The notes: generated from the letters alone by a model not told the origin. Positions 38,028-45,924 are shown, counted from the first letter of the stretch. The stretch: 64,000 nucleotides of DNA from Natrinema salaciae (GCF_900110865.1 NZ_FOFD01000001.1:62001-126000); one strand, 5' to 3'. A program made the numbers and translations.

Positions 38028-38828
38028 CGGCGGATCACTCCGCGGGAGTCGAGGCGACCGTCGTGGCCTCGTCCAACGGACCCGCCCGTCGAGACCCGCG
38101 TACCGCCGCGTCCCGTCGAATCGACCGAGAAACGTGACCACCTGCGGTTCGACAAAAAGGCGTGGACTCGCGACCGCGGCCGGCACGTTGAGCCCTGTTC
38201 GCGGGCCACGACCGACCGTTTACCGATTCAATAGCGAATTGTGGCACTCGAACGGCATCGAGCGACCGCACGCAGTCCGCGCATTTGGCCGCGTTTTCCG
38301 TGGAGACGAGTCTCCGAAGAACGCGGTCCGACTCACAGTATTTTCCCGGGATTGCGTCTCCTTGGCGGGAACTAGTTCGTTCGGTTCGAAGTGCTGTGAT
38401 CGCTCGGTCGCGTACTCGTTTCCCGACCCGTCGAAACCGATCGCCGAACTCGCCGGCGGACGGTGCCGCTTCGACGGGCCATCTCGTCTCGGTGAGTCGC
38501 TCGAGCGGCGCAGCGACACCGTTTCCGGGGCGAGTAACCACCGCAGTAGTGACCGTCTCGAGAGCCTTCCCTCCGTCCGAACGGACCGGGTCGACGAGGG
38601 CGAACGGGACTCGGCTCGATACCCGCTTCACAGCCAGTTCTTCGCACTGTCGTCTATTGGTATGGGCGCTGTACAGGGAGCGCCGACGGGATCACGTTGC
38701 GGTATTCTACTATTGGGAACCCGCGTCTCACGTCGACGGCCACCACACGCTCGCGCGATGTCGATTTCGAAGCGGCGCGAAACCGACGAGCGCGACACTT
38801 TATTTTTGGTGGGGGCGAAGTCCGACCT
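38028..38828. other. 801-nt gene-poor stretch
   Basis: I see no gene I can support here. A 198-codon open frame on the minus strand (38035-38631) has high Arg/Thr and none of the acidity of neighbouring proteins, so it was treated as chance. The DNA near 38220-38420 is less GC-biased than its surroundings and may be decayed sequence. The TATA box for the next gene is at its right end. Confidence 0.4.
38799..38807 (+). promoter_or_regulatory. TATA box of the RuvC-fold gene
   Basis: TTTATTTTT lies 22-30 nt before the GTG at 38829. A transcript from it would begin at the start codon, which supports the choice of the leaderless GTG over upstream ATGs. Confidence 0.6.
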
Positions 38829-39608
38829 GTGATCGTCGTCGCCACGGCAGACTTCGAGGTGTACCACGACGTCGTCAACGAGCTTCGGGACCGCGGAACG
38901 ACGTTTACAACCGTCGAGCCCGACGAAGCGCTGCCGGACGGTGCCACCGTCGTCGTTACCGGGGCCGACCACGCCGACACCTTCACGGACGTGACGACGA
39001 TCGTCGCCGACCCGGACGACCCCCGACGTGCGGTCGATCAGGCCCTGGCCGCGGTTCGCGGCGACGGCGGCCGAACGGTCATCGGCGTCGATCCGGGCCG
39101 GAAACCCGGCATCGCCGTCCTCGCGGGCGAGACCGTCGTCGCGGCCTTTCACGTACCGCTCGGCGACGCCGTCGACGTGATCCAGCGCGAGGCCGCCGAA
39201 GCCCCGTCGCCGGTCGTCCGAATCGGGGACGGCTCCCGGCTCGAGAGCGCGAAACTGGTCAACGAACTCGACTCCGTCACCGTCGAACTCGTGGACGAGA
39301 CCGGGACGACTCCCTATCTGGGTACGGGCACCCGTGGAATGGGCGACGTGCTCGCCGCGGTCAACATCGCCCGACTCGAGGGGGAGGTCGTCGACGCCCG
39401 CGAGATCGAGCCGACGGAGGGGGAGATTCAGGTCATCAAGGACCGCTCTCGCGAACGGAGCGAGCGGAACCGAGCGATCGACGAGGTGCTCGCGCGCCGG
39501 GTCGCTGCGGGCGAGTTGACCGTCGACGAGGCGCTCGCCGAACATCGAGGCGACGGGGCGGGATCGGCGACCGAACCGACGAACTCGGACGACTCCGACG
39601 AGTCGTAG
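38829..39608 (+). CDS. RuvC/RNase H-fold protein, archaeal
   Basis: A 259-residue acidic protein with a GTG start placed by the TATA box. After an N-terminal ~80-residue alpha/beta domain, the segment VIGVDPGRKPGIAVLAGE carries the strand-Asp-Pro-Gly signature of RuvC-like nucleases. Further acidic residues in VVRIGDGSRLESAKLV and TGTRGMGDVLAAVNIARLE could complete a metal site. Similar uncharacterised archaeal proteins are annotated as putative resolvase-fold proteins. The C-terminal ~50 residues are a charged helix and disordered tail. A nuclease function is inferred only from the fold signature. Confidence 0.65.
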   Translation: MIVVATADFEVYHDVVNELRDRGTTFTTVEPDEALPDGATVVVTGADHADTFTDVTTIVADPDDPRRAVDQALAAVRGDGGRTVIGVDPGRKPGIAVLAGETVVAAFHVPLGDAVDVIQREAAEAPSPVVRIGDGSRLESAKLVNELDSVTVELVDETGTTPYLGTGTRGMGDVLAAVNIARLEGEVVDAREIEPTEGEIQVIKDRSRERSERNRAIDEVLARRVAAGELTVDEALAEHRGDGAGSATEPTNSDDSDES

Positions 39609-39824: not shown

Positions 39825-41372
39825 TTACGCGCCTACCCAGACGTTCGTCGACGCGACGGACGTGAGCTGGATGTTCTCGTTCTCCTGCATCGTGATCTGC
39901 GAACTCCCGGCGCTGCCGTTGTCGGCGGCGACCGCGAGGGACGTGTGCTGCTGGTTCAGGTTCTCCTGCGAGATGAACTGGTACTGTTCGATCGCAGCAC
40001 TCGCTTCCTGCTCACCGTCGTTCGTCTGCGTGGCGTTGGAGTCGAAGTCGTACGACATGCCAGGCGTAGCGCCCGAGTTGCCGTCGATGGTGACCGTCGT
40101 GCTCGAGGTTCGGGCGACGTCGTCGGAGACGTACCCGGGGCTCGCATAGACGTTCAGCGCGTCGGCGTAGCCGATCTGGGCGTTGTAGTTCTGCTGGTAG
40201 GCGAGCTGGACGGCGGTGGCCTCGCTCCCGTTCTCTGCGATGGCCATCGCGCTGTTCTGCAGGTTGATGTTCCGCTGTTCGACGCCCTGCTCCTGAGCGA
40301 CGCCGGCGGTCGCCGTCTGCTCGGTTCCGTCGTCGCCTTTCTTGTCGGGCTTGTGCGTCTCGGTCTCGGTCGAGAGCATGTCGCTGCTGACGTCGCCCGC
40401 GGTCGCGACGTTCATTCCGGCCGAGGACGCGAGCAGGTTCGAGGCGTCGGCGCTTCCGAGCTGGGTGTTGAGGTTGCTCTGGTCGGTGAACTGGATCGCC
40501 GTCGCGGTGCTGTTGGCACCGACCGCGATGGCGACGGCACCGCGCTGTTCGTTGAGGTTGGCCTGTTCGACGTCCTGTTGCTGCGTGAGCAGCGAGTCGG
40601 CGTCCTGGCCCACGCTCGGCCCGTGGTCGCCGGACTTGTCCTTCTTGTGACCGAATTCGCCGTCACCGAGGTAGACGTTGGACGCGTTGGCGACGCCTTC
40701 CTGCAGGTTCTCGTTGCGCTGGTAGGACTGCTGGACGGCGGTCGCGTCGCTGTCGTTGACGGCGAGGGCGAACGCGGTGCTCTGGTTGTTGTAGTTAACC
40801 TGCGCGACGTCCTGCGACTGGGTCACAGCGGCGAGGGCCTCCTGGGTGACCGTCTCGTCGCCCTTCTTGTCTTTGACGCCCCAGCCGTCGAACTGCTGAT
40901 CGCCACCGTTGCCGATGATGATGTTGACGTTACCGACGTTCTCGAACTGGGTTTCCGCGCTCTGCAGGCGGTTCGCGGCCGTGGCCGACCCGCGCTGCTC
41001 GTTGTCGTTGTACTGGTTCGACTCCTGGATGGCGGTCGCTTCGCCACCGTCGATCGAGATCGACACCGCGGAGCCCTGCTCGTTGAGGTTGACCTGATCG
41101 ACGTCCTGGTACTGAATAACCTGCGCCGTCGAGTCGGCCGTGTCACCCGCGTGCTGATCGACGTACTCCTCGAGGGACATGTCGCTGAGGTCCGCGCCGA
41201 AGACCAGGTACAGCTCCTCACCGTCCTCGAGCGCGTGAACGGTTCCGTTCTCGAGGTCGCCGTCGCCGCCAGCCGTGGCGGCCGGGGCCCCGACCGCCAC
41301 CATGGACAGGGCGACCATACAGGTCAGAAGGAGTGTCGTAGCTTGTGATCGTCTCGTCGTGTCGTTTGTCAT
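39825..41372 (-). CDS. Secreted Q/N-rich protein with five curlin-like repeats
   Basis: A 515-residue protein. Residues 1-34 are a Sec-type signal (LLLTCMVALSMVAVGAPAAT). After ELYLVFGADLSDMSLEEYV come five ~50-residue cores at about 86-134, 183-232, 262-312, 357-407 and 461-510. Each follows Q-x4-Q-x-N-x-N-x-Q, then A-x-A, then A-T-A-x-Q-x3-Q-x-N-x-N-x-Q, like two curlin rungs of a beta-solenoid. Lys/Asp linkers (KDKKGD, HKKDKSGD, KPDKKGDD) separate several of them. It lacks cysteine in the mature part. An extracellular fibre role is inferred. It is divergent from three smaller Q/N-rich secreted genes. Confidence 0.7.
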   Translation of the reverse strand: MTNDTTRRSQATTLLLTCMVALSMVAVGAPAATAGGDGDLENGTVHALEDGEELYLVFGADLSDMSLEEYVDQHAGDTADSTAQVIQYQDVDQVNLNEQGSAVSISIDGGEATAIQESNQYNDNEQRGSATAANRLQSAETQFENVGNVNIIIGNGGDQQFDGWGVKDKKGDETVTQEALAAVTQSQDVAQVNYNNQSTAFALAVNDSDATAVQQSYQRNENLQEGVANASNVYLGDGEFGHKKDKSGDHGPSVGQDADSLLTQQQDVEQANLNEQRGAVAIAVGANSTATAIQFTDQSNLNTQLGSADASNLLASSAGMNVATAGDVSSDMLSTETETHKPDKKGDDGTEQTATAGVAQEQGVEQRNINLQNSAMAIAENGSEATAVQLAYQQNYNAQIGYADALNVYASPGYVSDDVARTSSTTVTIDGNSGATPGMSYDFDSNATQTNDGEQEASAAIEQYQFISQENLNQQHTSLAVAADNGSAGSSQITMQENENIQLTSVASTNVWVGA

Positions 41373-41472
41373 TGATCGTTTGATATGGGTCGTGATGGTC
41401 TTTCGTTTCTGAGTCTATGCGACGCAAACCATCCTATCCGCATGAGTCCCTTTGTTATCGACACGTTGGGGG

Positions 41473-41482
41473 CCATATGAAG
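41473..41482 (-). promoter_or_regulatory. CTTCATATGG motif shared with the fourth gene's upstream region
   Basis: CTTCATATGG, embedded in GGCC(G)CTTCATATGG(C/G)C, lies ~100 nt upstream of the large Q/N-rich gene. The same decamer occurs at 44949-44958, 166 nt before the gene at 45124. It may be a common regulator site; two occurrences are weak support. Confidence 0.35.
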
Positions 41483-41798
41483 CGGCCTAGTGATCCGTAG
41501 GATGCTGCTTACACGGGGAAACCGTCGCCTTCGATCGGCTGCTGTGACACCCGGTTCCGGATGTTCTTCCGGACTGATCCTTCACGAATCGTCGAAGCCA
41601 TGGCCAGAATACACTGTTTTGGACCTGGACAGGTGGTCGCGAGATCGTTTCGAAAATAGAATCACCGGCTTTCCGGGTGATCGATGAGCGACGATCGGAA
41701 CATATCGGATATTTCGGGGACGGAGCGGTCGCATGGGACGTCGAAACCGCAGTTGACGGCTGCGATCGGGTCGTCGTTTCGGCGACCAGTTTCCGATT

Positions 41799-42072
41799 AG
41801 CGTCGGTGAACGATCGCACCACGACCATCAGGTGGTTCGTCCGTGACTCTAATGCCGGATTCGTCACGAAACCGTTTGCCGGGTTCAAATGCGTCGCCGT
41901 CAATAGCAGTGACTGGGCACCGCGACACGACGGGGGCCCGGGAGGTGACCGCTCCCACACGGGGAGCGACAGCGCCGTCACTCGAGGCGCGGCCTCTTCG
42001 TGGATCTCTACGGAATACCCCGTCTGTGGTTCGCACGCGTGCTGCCCGAGACGAAACACGGTGACACACGAA
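41799..42072 (+). repeat. Upstream block, copy 1 of a segmental duplication
   Basis: This block aligns along most of its length with 43295-43569. Shared stretches include GTCACTCGAGGCGCG, GGTTCGCACGCGTGCTGCCC and ACGAAACCGTTT. It directly precedes the first small Q/N-rich gene, so gene and upstream DNA were duplicated together. Confidence 0.75.
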
Positions 42073-42474
42073 ATGAAACGTACACACACACTCGCGCTGA
42101 TGATCGCGCTGATCGGTGGTCTCGCACTCGTCGGATTCGCCGGCTCGGCAGCCGCACAGCCAGATACTGACGTCGATGCGCTCAACCCCGAGGTCGACAT
42201 CGACCAGGACGCCGACGCGGACACCACGATCGAGACCAACCAGGAAAATAGCAACTCACAGACCCAGGTAGCGGCGTCGTTCAGCAGTTCCGATGAGAGC
42301 TACGCGACGACGACCGCGATCCAGGGTCAGGACGTCGACCAGGACAACGTCAACGTGGTCAACGACGTGAACACGATCGCGGCGAACCAGGCTAACGATA
42401 ACGAAGCCGAGAACGACTTCGAACTCGACGTCAGAATTGGCCCGCCGGGACAGGTATTCGACAACGCGGGATAG
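42073..42474 (+). CDS. Small secreted Q/N-rich protein, tandem paralogue 1
   Basis: A 133-residue protein. Residues 1-28 are a signal peptide (KRTHTLALMIALIGGLALVG, then an A-A-A-type cleavage site). The mature part is Asp/Asn/Gln/Ser-rich and cysteine-free: DVDALNPEVDIDQDADADTT, then a Q-E-N-S-N-S-Q-T-Q segment, GQDVDQDNVNVVNDVNTIAA and ANQANDNEAENDFELDV. The Q-D-V-D-Q-D-N-V-N pattern echoes the repeat core of the divergent 515-residue protein. It is paralogous along its full length to the gene at 43570. A minor fibre subunit or nucleator is a guess by analogy to curli. Confidence 0.7.
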   Translation: MKRTHTLALMIALIGGLALVGFAGSAAAQPDTDVDALNPEVDIDQDADADTTIETNQENSNSQTQVAASFSSSDESYATTTAIQGQDVDQDNVNVVNDVNTIAANQANDNEAENDFELDVRIGPPGQVFDNAG

Positions 42475-43569
42475 AGAGCTCGAACGATCCCTTCTAATCC
42501 GTAATCTTTCGGTTTTTTCGGCCGAGTTCGAACAAGTCGCGGCGGACCGTGATCACATCCCACCTCGTAGTACCCGCGGTGACGGCGGTAGTTACTTCCC
42601 ACCGGCCGGGCGTCGGATGCTCTCCGTCCGGTCGAGTACTCCGCTCGTTCTCTGCCGGCCGGTGTGAACCCCGAACGAGCAGTTCACCTCGCGTCCGATC
42701 GCCTGCGGGTGGTCGATCGCACTGGATCGGGGCCGGTGGCCGATCGAGAACGCTGTCTGACGCCAACGTGAAGCGCTCCGCTGCTGATCGGTCGATGCGA
42801 CCAGTCCGCGAAACACGGACGAGACTGCCTCGAATACCGAAGCGACTGGTCGAGTGCGTGGAAACGGAGGGACTACGATAACGGCAATCGCCGTCTGCGA
42901 GCGCGCTCGAGTGGGATCACGGACAGCAGTGACCACCTCTCGACGCGGAGCTGCGTCCGGTGACGACCCGAGGCTCCGAGATCACGATTTTCGAACGTGG
43001 ACCGCGGAAACAGCCCTCGTTACACCGGCTGGGATCTTCGTTCGGCGAGACGGAACGGTCGACTTCGATCATCGGGCGTCAGATTCCAGATTCGATCATG
43101 GGTTCGTCGGCGAGTTTCCCGTACTACTAGAATAGACGTTCCAGGGCACGGAGAACCCGGTTGTAGCACCGAACTACTCGTTCAGTAGGCCAGCCAGGCA
43201 ACGTGTGTCTACTGGTTATGGCCGCTCCAGCAGCGAGCGAAACCACAACGGAACAGGAGAGATGGGATGTCGTTCGGATGACAAGGGTCCGGCTAGGGTC
43301 GGTGAAAGATCGATCTATGGCCGTAGGCACCCCCGACAGCGTCTCTAATGCCAAATTCGACACGAAACCGTTTCCCGGATTGAAATGGGCCGCCGTCGAT
43401 AGCAGCGACTGGGCACTGCGACACAAAAGGGCACCAGGAGGTGGCCGCTCTCGTGACGAGCGACAGCGCCGTCACTCGAGGCGCGCCCTCTTCGGTGACC
43501 CTCCGCTGAACCCCGTTGTGGTTCGCACGCGTGCTGCCCGTGACGAACGACGGAACACGGTGATACTGA
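42475..43569. other. Non-coding region between the two tandem paralogues
   Basis: These 1.1 kb hold the downstream flank of paralogue 1 (a T-run near 42513 could end its transcript), a block at 42672-42735 repeated at 44150-44222, and the duplicated upstream block of paralogue 2 (43295-43569). Open frames present here are short and arginine-rich on both strands, and none was supported. Confidence 0.5.
43295..43569 (+). repeat. Upstream block, copy 2 of a segmental duplication
   Basis: This is the diverged counterpart of 41799-42072, placed at the same position relative to its gene. Conserved parts cluster near the gene start and around the ACGAAACCGTTT and GACAGCGCCGTCACTCGAGG stretches, suggesting control sequence or a long leader under constraint. 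Confidence 0.75.
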
Positions 43570-43959
43570 ATGAAACGCACATACACACTCGCACTGATGG
43601 TCGCACTGATCGGCGGCCTCGCACTCGTCGGCTTCGCCGGCTCGGCAGCCGCACAACCGGATACGGACGTCGACGCGCTCAACCCCGAGGTCAACATCGA
43701 CCAAGACTCGAACGCGACCACCATAATCGAGACCGACCAGGAAAATAGCAACTCGCAGAGTCAGACAGCGTGGTCGTACAGTAGCTCCGACGAGAGCTAC
43801 GCGGAGACGACCGCCCTCCAGGGGCAGGACGTCGACCAGGACAACGTCAACGTCGTCGATAACGTAACCACGATCGCGGCGAACCAGGCCAACGATACCG
43901 AGGCAGAGAACGACTTCGAATTCGACGTCGACCTCGGGTTCGGTGACAACGTCGGATAG
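43570..43959 (+). CDS. Small secreted Q/N-rich protein, tandem paralogue 2
   Basis: A 129-residue protein closely matching paralogue 1 from the signal peptide (KRTYTLALMVALIGGLALVG) to the end. Differences sit in the middle, where WSYSSSDESYAETTALQGQD replaces an ASFSSSDESYATTT-type segment, and in the C-terminus (DFEFDVDLGFGDNVG). Gln, Asn and Asp positions are kept better than the rest, and cysteine is absent. Both copies have intact frames and signals, so both are probably functional. Export is by Sec, judged from the n-h-c signal pattern. Confidence 0.7.
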   Translation: MKRTYTLALMVALIGGLALVGFAGSAAAQPDTDVDALNPEVNIDQDSNATTIIETDQENSNSQSQTAWSYSSSDESYAETTALQGQDVDQDNVNVVDNVTTIAANQANDTEAENDFEFDVDLGFGDNVG

Positions 43960-45123
43960 CGACCGTCGGTAGAAAAGCCAGATAACAGCTCGCTCCGTTC
44001 ATTTTTCACGGACGTCGGTCACATCTCACACAGCGTCCGTAAATTGCCACACATCGTAGTGCTGACGAGAAGGACCGTCTCGTAATCCGCTCTTTCGAGT
44101 TCGACTGCGCTGCGGGCGAGACGAGTACCGACTCCATCGGTCGATACGAACCTCGAGCGAAGAGTCGGTCTCTCGTCCCATCGCCTGTGCGTGGTCGACA
44201 ACACTGGATCGAGGTCGGTGTTCGCCGCTCAATGTCCCTCGTCCCACGATGCGACCATTGCAGGCGCGTCGATCGTATCGTTCGTGCCTCTCGGCGCACA
44301 CGCTCGGTCGCACGGAGGCGGGCGACGACACCTCGACGGATACCTTGGACGGGAGCATTCCGGTTCCCGAGCTACCATCGTCGTTCGCGGATTGTCCGAG
44401 CACGGCGTATGGATCTCGATAGTGGTCGTTCACACCTCGCCGTTGACCGCCGATCACTCTCCAGTGGACCACGTTTCCGTGGTGTTCGATCTGACGGACG
44501 GCTTCGCCAGTCCGATTCAGTGCCCAGAATAGGGTACCCACTCCCCAGTTCACCGACCGCTCCATACCACCGCCCGACTGCCGAGCGACACGTACCCGAC
44601 CCGTTCACGGACAGCCTCCGTGACTGGAACCGGTCGAGAACCGCGCTCGTTCGTCTGGGGGAACCGTACTCGAACTCGAGCGTGAAGCCCTGTGGTGGTT
44701 CGACCAGTGATTGTCGGTATCTCTCGGTAGCCGTACAGATAGGCGCTGCTAGCAACGCCATACTTCTGCGGTGAGCCTCTCTGAAGCGGGGGATCGTCTG
44801 TAATGCGGGACGACCAGCAGTCACGGGTTGATATTCCATTGGTAATTTCGTTACACGATCCGTTCAAACTAGAGTCGGTGTGTAGTTCCACCCATAATTT
44901 CACCCCGATCGATGTAGCACGTGACTATCCCCTTGAACGGTATTTGGCCTTCATATGGGCTGCTGCGGTCGATTTCGACCGGGCGATGTGCCACTGTGAT
45001 ATGGGTGCTCGTGGTGACACGGTTTGCAGCTGGTGTGGTGGTTCGCGCCGATTCGTGTCCTATCGGATCGTGTTCCCATACACGTGCGCACAGGCCCAGA
45101 AAATACAGAGATCTACTCAAACT
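43960..45123. other. Non-coding region before the fourth Q/N-rich gene
   Basis: These 1.16 kb contain the downstream block (44150-44222) shared with 42672-42735 and a T-run near 44003. The last ~340 nt, richer in AT, carry the CTTCATATGG motif (44949-44958) and the upstream region of the gene at 45124. No open frame with haloarchaeal character was found. Confidence 0.45.
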
Positions 45124-45924
45124 ATGAAACGGACAATCACGGTACTACTGACGCTCGCGCTCATTACCAGTGCGGCGTTCGTGGGACTCGCTGGGACAGC
45201 TGCTGCAGGCGGTGCAGACGACCATCACGATGACCATGGAGATACTGACGATCTCCGGATCGCGAGTTCCAACATCGATCAGTCGCAAGGCGTCTCACAG
45301 ACGAACGATATAGAACAGAACGCCGCCCAATTCAACAACCAGGAAGCGACCGGAATCGACATCGGCGAAATCGTAAACGATGGCGACGGGAACGGTGATA
45401 ACGGCGATGGCGGTGAGGCCGCTATCGAAACGATCACCTGGTATCGGAACCTGGGGCAGTCGGGTAACATCCAACAACTCGCCCAGGCGACCTGGAACGG
45501 CGAGCAGTTCGTGATCACCACCGCTACGCCGAACATCGACGTCTCGGTGAGCGTCGAGGAGACGAACAGTGCGGACGACCCGACTGAAGTCGACTGGGAA
45601 TACACCATCCCCGGACAGGGAGAAGGACGGGCACCTGACTTCGTGCGGGTGACCTCCAACGGAGATACGTGTGACTTCGACGTCACCGGCGAGGAATCGC
45701 CGTTCACCGGAACGGTTACGGTGTGTGAACCGACCGACGGGGGCAACGGTGATGGCAACGGTAACGGCGACGGTGCCGGGTCCGATGACAGTTTCACCGG
45801 AACCACCGGTGATCAGACGATCAACCAAGTGTTAGAGCAGAACGCCGACGCGGACAACTCGAACTCACAGAACGCCGAGGCGAGCTCCTGGAACGGGATC
45901 CTCAACTCGATCACCGCCGGCTGA
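45124..45924 (+). CDS. Secreted Q/N-rich protein with central globular segment
   Basis: A 266-residue protein with the signal KRTITVLLTLALITSAAFVG and an A-A-A-type cleavage site, then a His/Asp stretch (DDHHDDHGDTDD). A first Q/N segment (NIDQSQGVSQTNDIEQNAAQ) and a last one (INQVLEQNADADNSNSQNAE) frame a beta-rich middle with two cysteines (DTCDFDVTG and TVTVCEPTD) that could form a disulphide. A Gly/Asn/Asp linker (GGNGDGNGNGDGAGSDD) precedes the last segment. Signal and end segments relate it to the three neighbouring proteins. The role is unknown; a fibre-tip or anchor protein is conceivable. Confidence 0.65.
   Translation: MKRTITVLLTLALITSAAFVGLAGTAAAGGADDHHDDHGDTDDLRIASSNIDQSQGVSQTNDIEQNAAQFNNQEATGIDIGEIVNDGDGNGDNGDGGEAAIETITWYRNLGQSGNIQQLAQATWNGEQFVITTATPNIDVSVSVEETNSADDPTEVDWEYTIPGQGEGRAPDFVRVTSNGDTCDFDVTGEESPFTGTVTVCEPTDGGNGDGNGNGDGAGSDDSFTGTTGDQTINQVLEQNADADNSNSQNAEASSWNGILNSITAG

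Follow-up and report, generated by a model that had tools for sequence, protein, structure and literature searches.

FapC and CsgA are the two best-known bacterial functional amyloids, and FapC needs an outer-membrane export system. FapC is a secreted protein with imperfect repeats of ~52-62 residues and variable linkers; each repeat forms one cross-beta layer, and the three layers have inward-facing conserved Asn/Gln and a Gly-rich motif, GNxGxN..G..NqQN (PDB 9U4U, 9NQD; PMC12392863); mutating the conserved Asn/Gln slows its fibrillation (PMC12392863). CsgA and CsgB (PF07012; PMC10192328, PMC3521004) combine a Q/N ladder and beta-rich repeats with major and minor subunits, the curlin repeat having ~23 residues of the form N-x-psi-x-psi-x-Q and an X-G-X-X arc (PMC10192328). 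Among archaea, the Methanospirillum sheath protein SH/MspA is extracellular and has an amyloid-like beta-arch (PMC10593813, PMC6242892), just one archaeal protein bearing curli-like repeats has been mentioned (Dueholm 2012; PMC3521004), and Haloferax volcanii biofilms take up amyloid dyes (PMC4180959). Here we analyze a locus of four genes, QN1, S1, S2 and S3, in a 64,000-nucleotide window of the Natrinema salaciae genome, which the original prediction had proposed as a candidate curli-like or amyloid system. Coordinates are window positions, with the strand in brackets. We consider it an even call that the locus encodes a set of surface or matrix proteins with layered cross-beta structure resembling FapC.

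The 515-residue QN1 contains five cores of ~57 residues (59 profile positions), each made of two half-units of 27/28 residues, with variable linkers of roughly 20-45 residues between them. The half-unit motif Q-x3-Q-x-N-x-N-x-Q occurs in 10 copies; when the QN1 residues were shuffled 20,000 times, the mean was 0.0042 copies and the maximum 1, and in this respect the secreted protein with five Q/N cores was correctly predicted. A column profile built from 359 cores of 72 QN1 relatives reads A-x-A-x-V-x-Q-x-Q-x-V-x-Q-x-N-x-N-x-Q-x-x-A-x-A-x-A-turn-A-x-A-x-Q-x-x-x-Q-x-N-x-N-x-Q-x-G-x-A-x-A-x-N. Conservation reaches 98-100% in most of its Q/N columns (82% in column 17 and 88% in column 19), the columns between the conserved Q/N/A positions are mostly free to vary, and the alternation is interrupted at core positions 19-22 (a two-residue bend after 19) and 27-31 (the turn). 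The ratio of non-synonymous to synonymous substitution rates (dN/dS) is 0.18-0.24 within the genus, and strong purifying selection acts on the Q/N pattern of QN1. At 0.53-0.57 identity, orthologous cores resemble one another more closely than different cores do (0.38-0.47); each of the five layers is thus old and conserved in its own right. The cores are poor in charge (Asp/Glu 0.10, Lys/Arg 0.02, Gln/Asn 0.26) and the linkers acidic (Asp/Glu 0.22, Gln/Asn 0.09); since this is the protein of a halophile, the cores are probably buried or stacked. A Sec-like signal peptide, judged by reading the sequence directly, opens each of QN1, S1, S2 and S3, and secretion is predicted for all four proteins.

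Two AlphaFold models of QN1 are of low confidence, with a mean predicted local distance difference test score (pLDDT) of 50.7 and 46.3 and block means in the cores of up to 87 in the first of them. Both place long beta-strands in each core, and the predicted strands 79-98, 102-107 and 111-134 end where the core alternation breaks. Foldseek ranked FapC 9u4u first (E 1.3) and CsgA 8c50 second (E 2.0) for one model and FapC 9nqd first (E 0.097) for the other, none of these matches being significant. VIA aligned CsgA with a Z of 5.2 over 118 residues at a root-mean-square deviation (rmsd) of 8.8, the span 87-506 covering all five cores, and gave a second Z of 2.0 for CsgA and one of 3.2 for FapC, again not significant. 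That the two bacterial amyloids head the list of neighbors is suggestive only; the beta-solenoid expected in the original prediction and a Greek-key cross-beta layer of the FapC type are candidate folds, and others may apply.

In design, FapC is the closest analogue of QN1. Both are secreted and have imperfect repeats of similar length separated by variable linkers, and the conserved Q/N positions of QN1 would face inward like the Asn/Gln of FapC. QN1 differs in having five layers rather than three and its own motif in place of the Gly-rich one. The similarity does not extend to sequence homology: searches of PDB sequences with the QN1 and core profiles, run to E 10, brought up no FapC.

The three small proteins were scored with the QN1 core profile against 200 composition-preserving shuffles each. 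All three outscored every shuffle, S1 with 8.2 bits (shuffle maximum 4.2), S2 with 15.8 (5.2) and S3 with 6.6 (6.1), the margin of S3 being small; single-core proteins adjoining QN1 in the genus g18 reach 44-52 bits with the same profile. The halves of S1 and S2 stand in the order B-A, swapped relative to the QN1 core. S3 has a domain of ~108 residues with two cysteines between its half A and a weak half B. No other copy of this domain was found in the genome, and S3 has no Pfam match. The three smaller secreted Q/N-rich proteins of the original prediction are thus present; their relatedness was rightly seen, and it goes beyond the shared motif then described, since their cores are permuted or split. 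The near absence of cysteine does not hold for S3. Haloarchaea are usually low in cysteine, so a low content is weak evidence in any case. S1 and S2 are tandem duplicates, upstream DNA included, and the duplication (window 41600-43600) took in roughly 200-350 bases of it; four related copies stand in a row at L006. Single-core proteins of L006 (2791-3579) and L011 (1498-2337) have cysteine-bearing domains that look similar to the S3 insert, either appended or inserted.

QN1 on the minus strand is divergent from S1, S2 and S3 on the plus strand. Divergent small secreted Q/N-rich genes lie within 4.5 kb upstream of QN1 in 13 of the 16 full-length loci, as had been predicted for the window, and none was found downstream or farther out in these 16. 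Small genes at L010 and L019 were added by tblastn, and 39 of 57 members of a wider set have a small gene. The element upstream of QN1 is the sole copy in the genome at up to 3 mismatches, and the S1/S2-type element has two copies at the same threshold, both at the locus. In the small genes of different genera, CGAAACCGTTT-N-CCGG-N-TT-N-AAATG recurs about 180-205 bases upstream of the start codon; in the window, about 180 bases separate the element from the small-gene start codon. The conservation of these elements and their confinement to the locus within their own genome point to dedicated promoters or operators for QN1 and the small genes. S1-S3 and their small relatives have the QN1 core, the small genes stand only divergently upstream with elements unique to the locus, and the three genes belong with QN1 in one system.

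A scan of a genome collection revealed 19 QN1 orthologues in Natrialbaceae (52-86% identity), the closest in Natrinema. In a survey of the class, 102 of 391 haloarchaeal genomes matched QN1 at E<=0.001. About 84 of the 391 are counted as carriers, about 79 in Natrialbaceae and five in other families; this figure is a hand count among the rows listed with strong, long matches and leaves out the rest, which match weakly and mainly in the signal-peptide region. The weak matches in family f4 (E 1e-4 to 1e-6) fall mostly on N-terminal residues of long open reading frames (ORFs) and are not counted as QN1. QN1 is kept across more than 20 genera. In each of the 15 genomes that the core profile matched, it found exactly five cores per protein, G047 having two QN1-type proteins and ten cores, and it gave no match outside the family in a sample of the wider phylum. 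Among 72,556 plasmid records searched by tblastn, QN1 occurs only in nine haloarchaeal megaplasmids, where the proteins are named hypothetical or PGF-CTERM protein by NCBI; no relative was found among IMG/VR viral contigs. Pfam and NCBIfam gave no match above the cut-off for any of the four proteins, PDB sequence searches with the whole QN1 profile and the core profile gave chance matches only, and the literature searched contained nothing on the family.

PGF-CTERM in archaeosortase substrates serves surface anchoring. The motif, with a hydrophobic tail, ends 8 of the 59 inspected QN1 relatives, as in PGF-CTERM surface proteins, and NCBI has named two of these eight accordingly; Tat-type signals occur in divergent relatives. 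The window QN1 has neither and ends with core 5. A set of one large protein with smaller single-core relatives, as originally proposed, is supported; the proposed anchor among the small proteins is not, and PGF-CTERM sits on the large protein itself in some relatives.

In the favored layered cross-beta reading, the locus would make an extracellular, cell-surface or matrix set from one ~57-residue Gln/Asn core. Each core would form one layer (long strand, two-residue bend, short strand, turn, second long strand), its A/Q/N side chains pointing to one face and the variable residues to the opposite one. The five layers of QN1 would stack as a cross-beta block from which the acidic linkers loop out, as in FapC. 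S1 and S2, one layer each with halves swapped, and S3, one layer with an inserted domain, would join or bridge QN1 blocks via the ladder, and such co-assembly could yield a surface fiber or mesh. The stacking is moderately supported. In favor of the reading, ten half-units are found against 0.004 expected, with strict Q/N/A alternation; the parity breaks agree with the AlphaFold strand ends; the cores are low in charge and the linkers acidic; FapC tops the Foldseek results for both models, and the alignment with CsgA extends from the first core to the fifth. The core shared by the small proteins, the divergent upstream position of their genes, the elements unique to the locus and the effect of the Asn/Gln mutations published for FapC (PMC12392863) also favor this reading. 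That the small and large proteins co-assemble, polymerize and act in biofilm is what we infer. Several points weigh against the reading. The models are poor, and a deeper alignment reduced their confidence further; the structural matches (best E 0.097 and 1.3; Z 5.2) lack significance; one species, L004, has no small genes; and a finished monomeric surface protein would account equally well for the fixed five cores and for the versions with PGF-CTERM or Tat. Secretion is predicted from the sequence, and expression and fiber formation are presumed. We put forward only tentatively the fuller proposal of a haloarchaeal functional amyloid unrelated by sequence to the bacterial ones, in which a five-layer subunit and one-layer subunits with swapped halves or an added domain, driven by dedicated divergent promoters, would co-assemble outside a single-membrane cell without a dedicated exporter, the PGF-CTERM versions acting as surface nucleators.

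The main rival, which we regard as possible and somewhat less probable than the layered set, is that QN1 is a non-polymerizing monomeric beta-solenoid or beta-stack surface protein, such as an adhesin stalk or wall component, with the small proteins as accessories or end caps. The distinct identities of the five fixed cores and the anchors of the PGF-CTERM relatives agree with it, Tat-type signals suggest export of a folded monomer, and other beta-solenoid proteins did not polymerize in a published survey (PMC10192328). However, core 5 ends the window protein with no obvious C-terminal capping domain, and adjacent single-core proteins with the same ladder are most easily explained by co-assembly. 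A secreted ligand-binding or enzymatic protein, whose repeats would be a binding scaffold, e.g., for polysaccharide or minerals, is unlikely: pectate lyases and a beta-helical antifreeze protein are among the weak structural neighbors, and the separate S3 domain could bind something, but no catalytic family is matched, and the invariant core residues, which lie on one face, are nearly without exception Q, N, A and G and form no catalytic constellation. A low-complexity or compositional artefact, which the Q/N richness might suggest, is refuted by the shuffle tests, the dN/dS values and the conservation over more than 20 genera.

A true curli system of bacterial origin is highly improbable, and the curli side of the original prediction, membership in that family, was not borne out. 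The Q/N ladder, the secreted repeats, the major subunit with smaller ones and the existence of genuine Curlin_rpt proteins in the Natrialbaceae genus g18 would favor it. However, Curlin_rpt (PF07012) has 0 matches in QN1 at E up to 10 and is missing from the families listed at E up to 1 for the 72 aligned relatives. Real haloarchaeal curlin repeats get scores from the core profile that are no higher than those of shuffles, and hhalign gave no profile-profile alignment. CsgG was found in 0 of 10 genomes searched, while 4 of 14 control genomes matched; an archaeon without an outer membrane would need no CsgG, and the expectation that this pore is dispensable is consistent with its absence. The repeat grammar also differs: the QN1 half-units are longer than the curlin repeat and have no X-G-X-X arc, and the mostly unbroken alternation and fixed five cores are unlike CsgA/CsgB. 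Membership in the curli family was rejected on these grounds. The genuine Curlin_rpt proteins, with signal peptides, were found in g18 only (4 of 391 genomes: G181, G192, G296, G356), e.g., L047:1300-2037 (-) in G181 (PF07012 E 2e-45, 10 stretches) and L048:994-1617 (+) in G192 (E 1e-36, 8 stretches), with near-perfect repeats of 19 residues, NDADVDQRNKAFVDQDGKN. Like QN1 they are secreted and built of repeats, and they come from the same archaeal family and from genomes that have QN1 too, but the core profile does not match them; no CsgG was found in those of their genomes tested. SH/MspA is set apart from QN1 by its description, with giant rings and hoops and a cap domain in a methanogen.

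The genes behind the amyloid-staining haloarchaeal matrix are not settled, and the QN1 locus, a conserved and undescribed cluster widespread in one family (Natrialbaceae), offers a specific candidate set with a clear repeat code. If its products polymerize, they would represent an independent route to a Gln/Asn-laddered functional amyloid at molar salt, without outer-membrane machinery; if not, they would still form a large undescribed surface-protein family.

Table 1. Features of the QN1 locus in the Natrinema salaciae window.
Feature	Position	Strand	Remarks
QN1	39825..41372	(-)	515-aa secreted five-core protein; orthologues
QN1 signal peptide, residues 1-34 (approximate)	41271..41372	(-)	direct reading; A-rich cleavage region kept in A1
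QN1 core 1, residues 81-139	40956..41132	(-)	core profile
QN1 core 2, residues 179-237	40662..40838	(-)	core profile
QN1 core 3, residues 258-316	40425..40601	(-)	core profile
QN1 core 4, residues 354-412	40137..40313	(-)	core profile
QN1 core 5, residues 457-515	39828..40004	(-)	core profile
QN1 conserved upstream element, CGATAACAAAG...GGATA....GGTTTGCG	41423..41460	(-)	kept in 10 species
S1 upstream element, CGAAACCGTTTGCCGGGTTCAAATG	41867..41891	(+)	conservation across genera
S1	42073..42474	(+)	133 aa, secreted; one core with its halves in B-A order
S1 half-unit B, residues 47-71	42211..42285	(+)	
S1 half-unit A, residues 78-106	42304..42390	(+)	
S2 upstream element	43363..43387	(+)	conservation; duplicated upstream DNA
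S2	43570..43959	(+)	129 aa; paralogue in tandem with S1
S2 half-unit B, residues 45-69	43702..43776	(+)	
S2 half-unit A, residues 79-107	43804..43890	(+)	
S3 variant upstream element, GAACGGTATTTGGCCTTCATATGG	44935..44958	(+)	resembles that of L006d
S3	45124..45924	(+)	266-aa secreted protein, single core split by inserted domain
S3 half-unit A, residues 47-68	45262..45327	(+)	
S3 inserted domain, both cysteines inside	45415..45738	(+)	sole copy in genome
S3 half-unit B, residues 239-257 (weak)	45838..45894	(+)	

An ORF of 303 aa (window 38697-39608 (+)) adjoins QN1 and has no Pfam match at E 0.001. The neighbors of the locus look like housekeeping genes, encoding a RadB-like protein, a YdjM-type membrane protein, a LarC-type nickel insertion protein and Cdc48.

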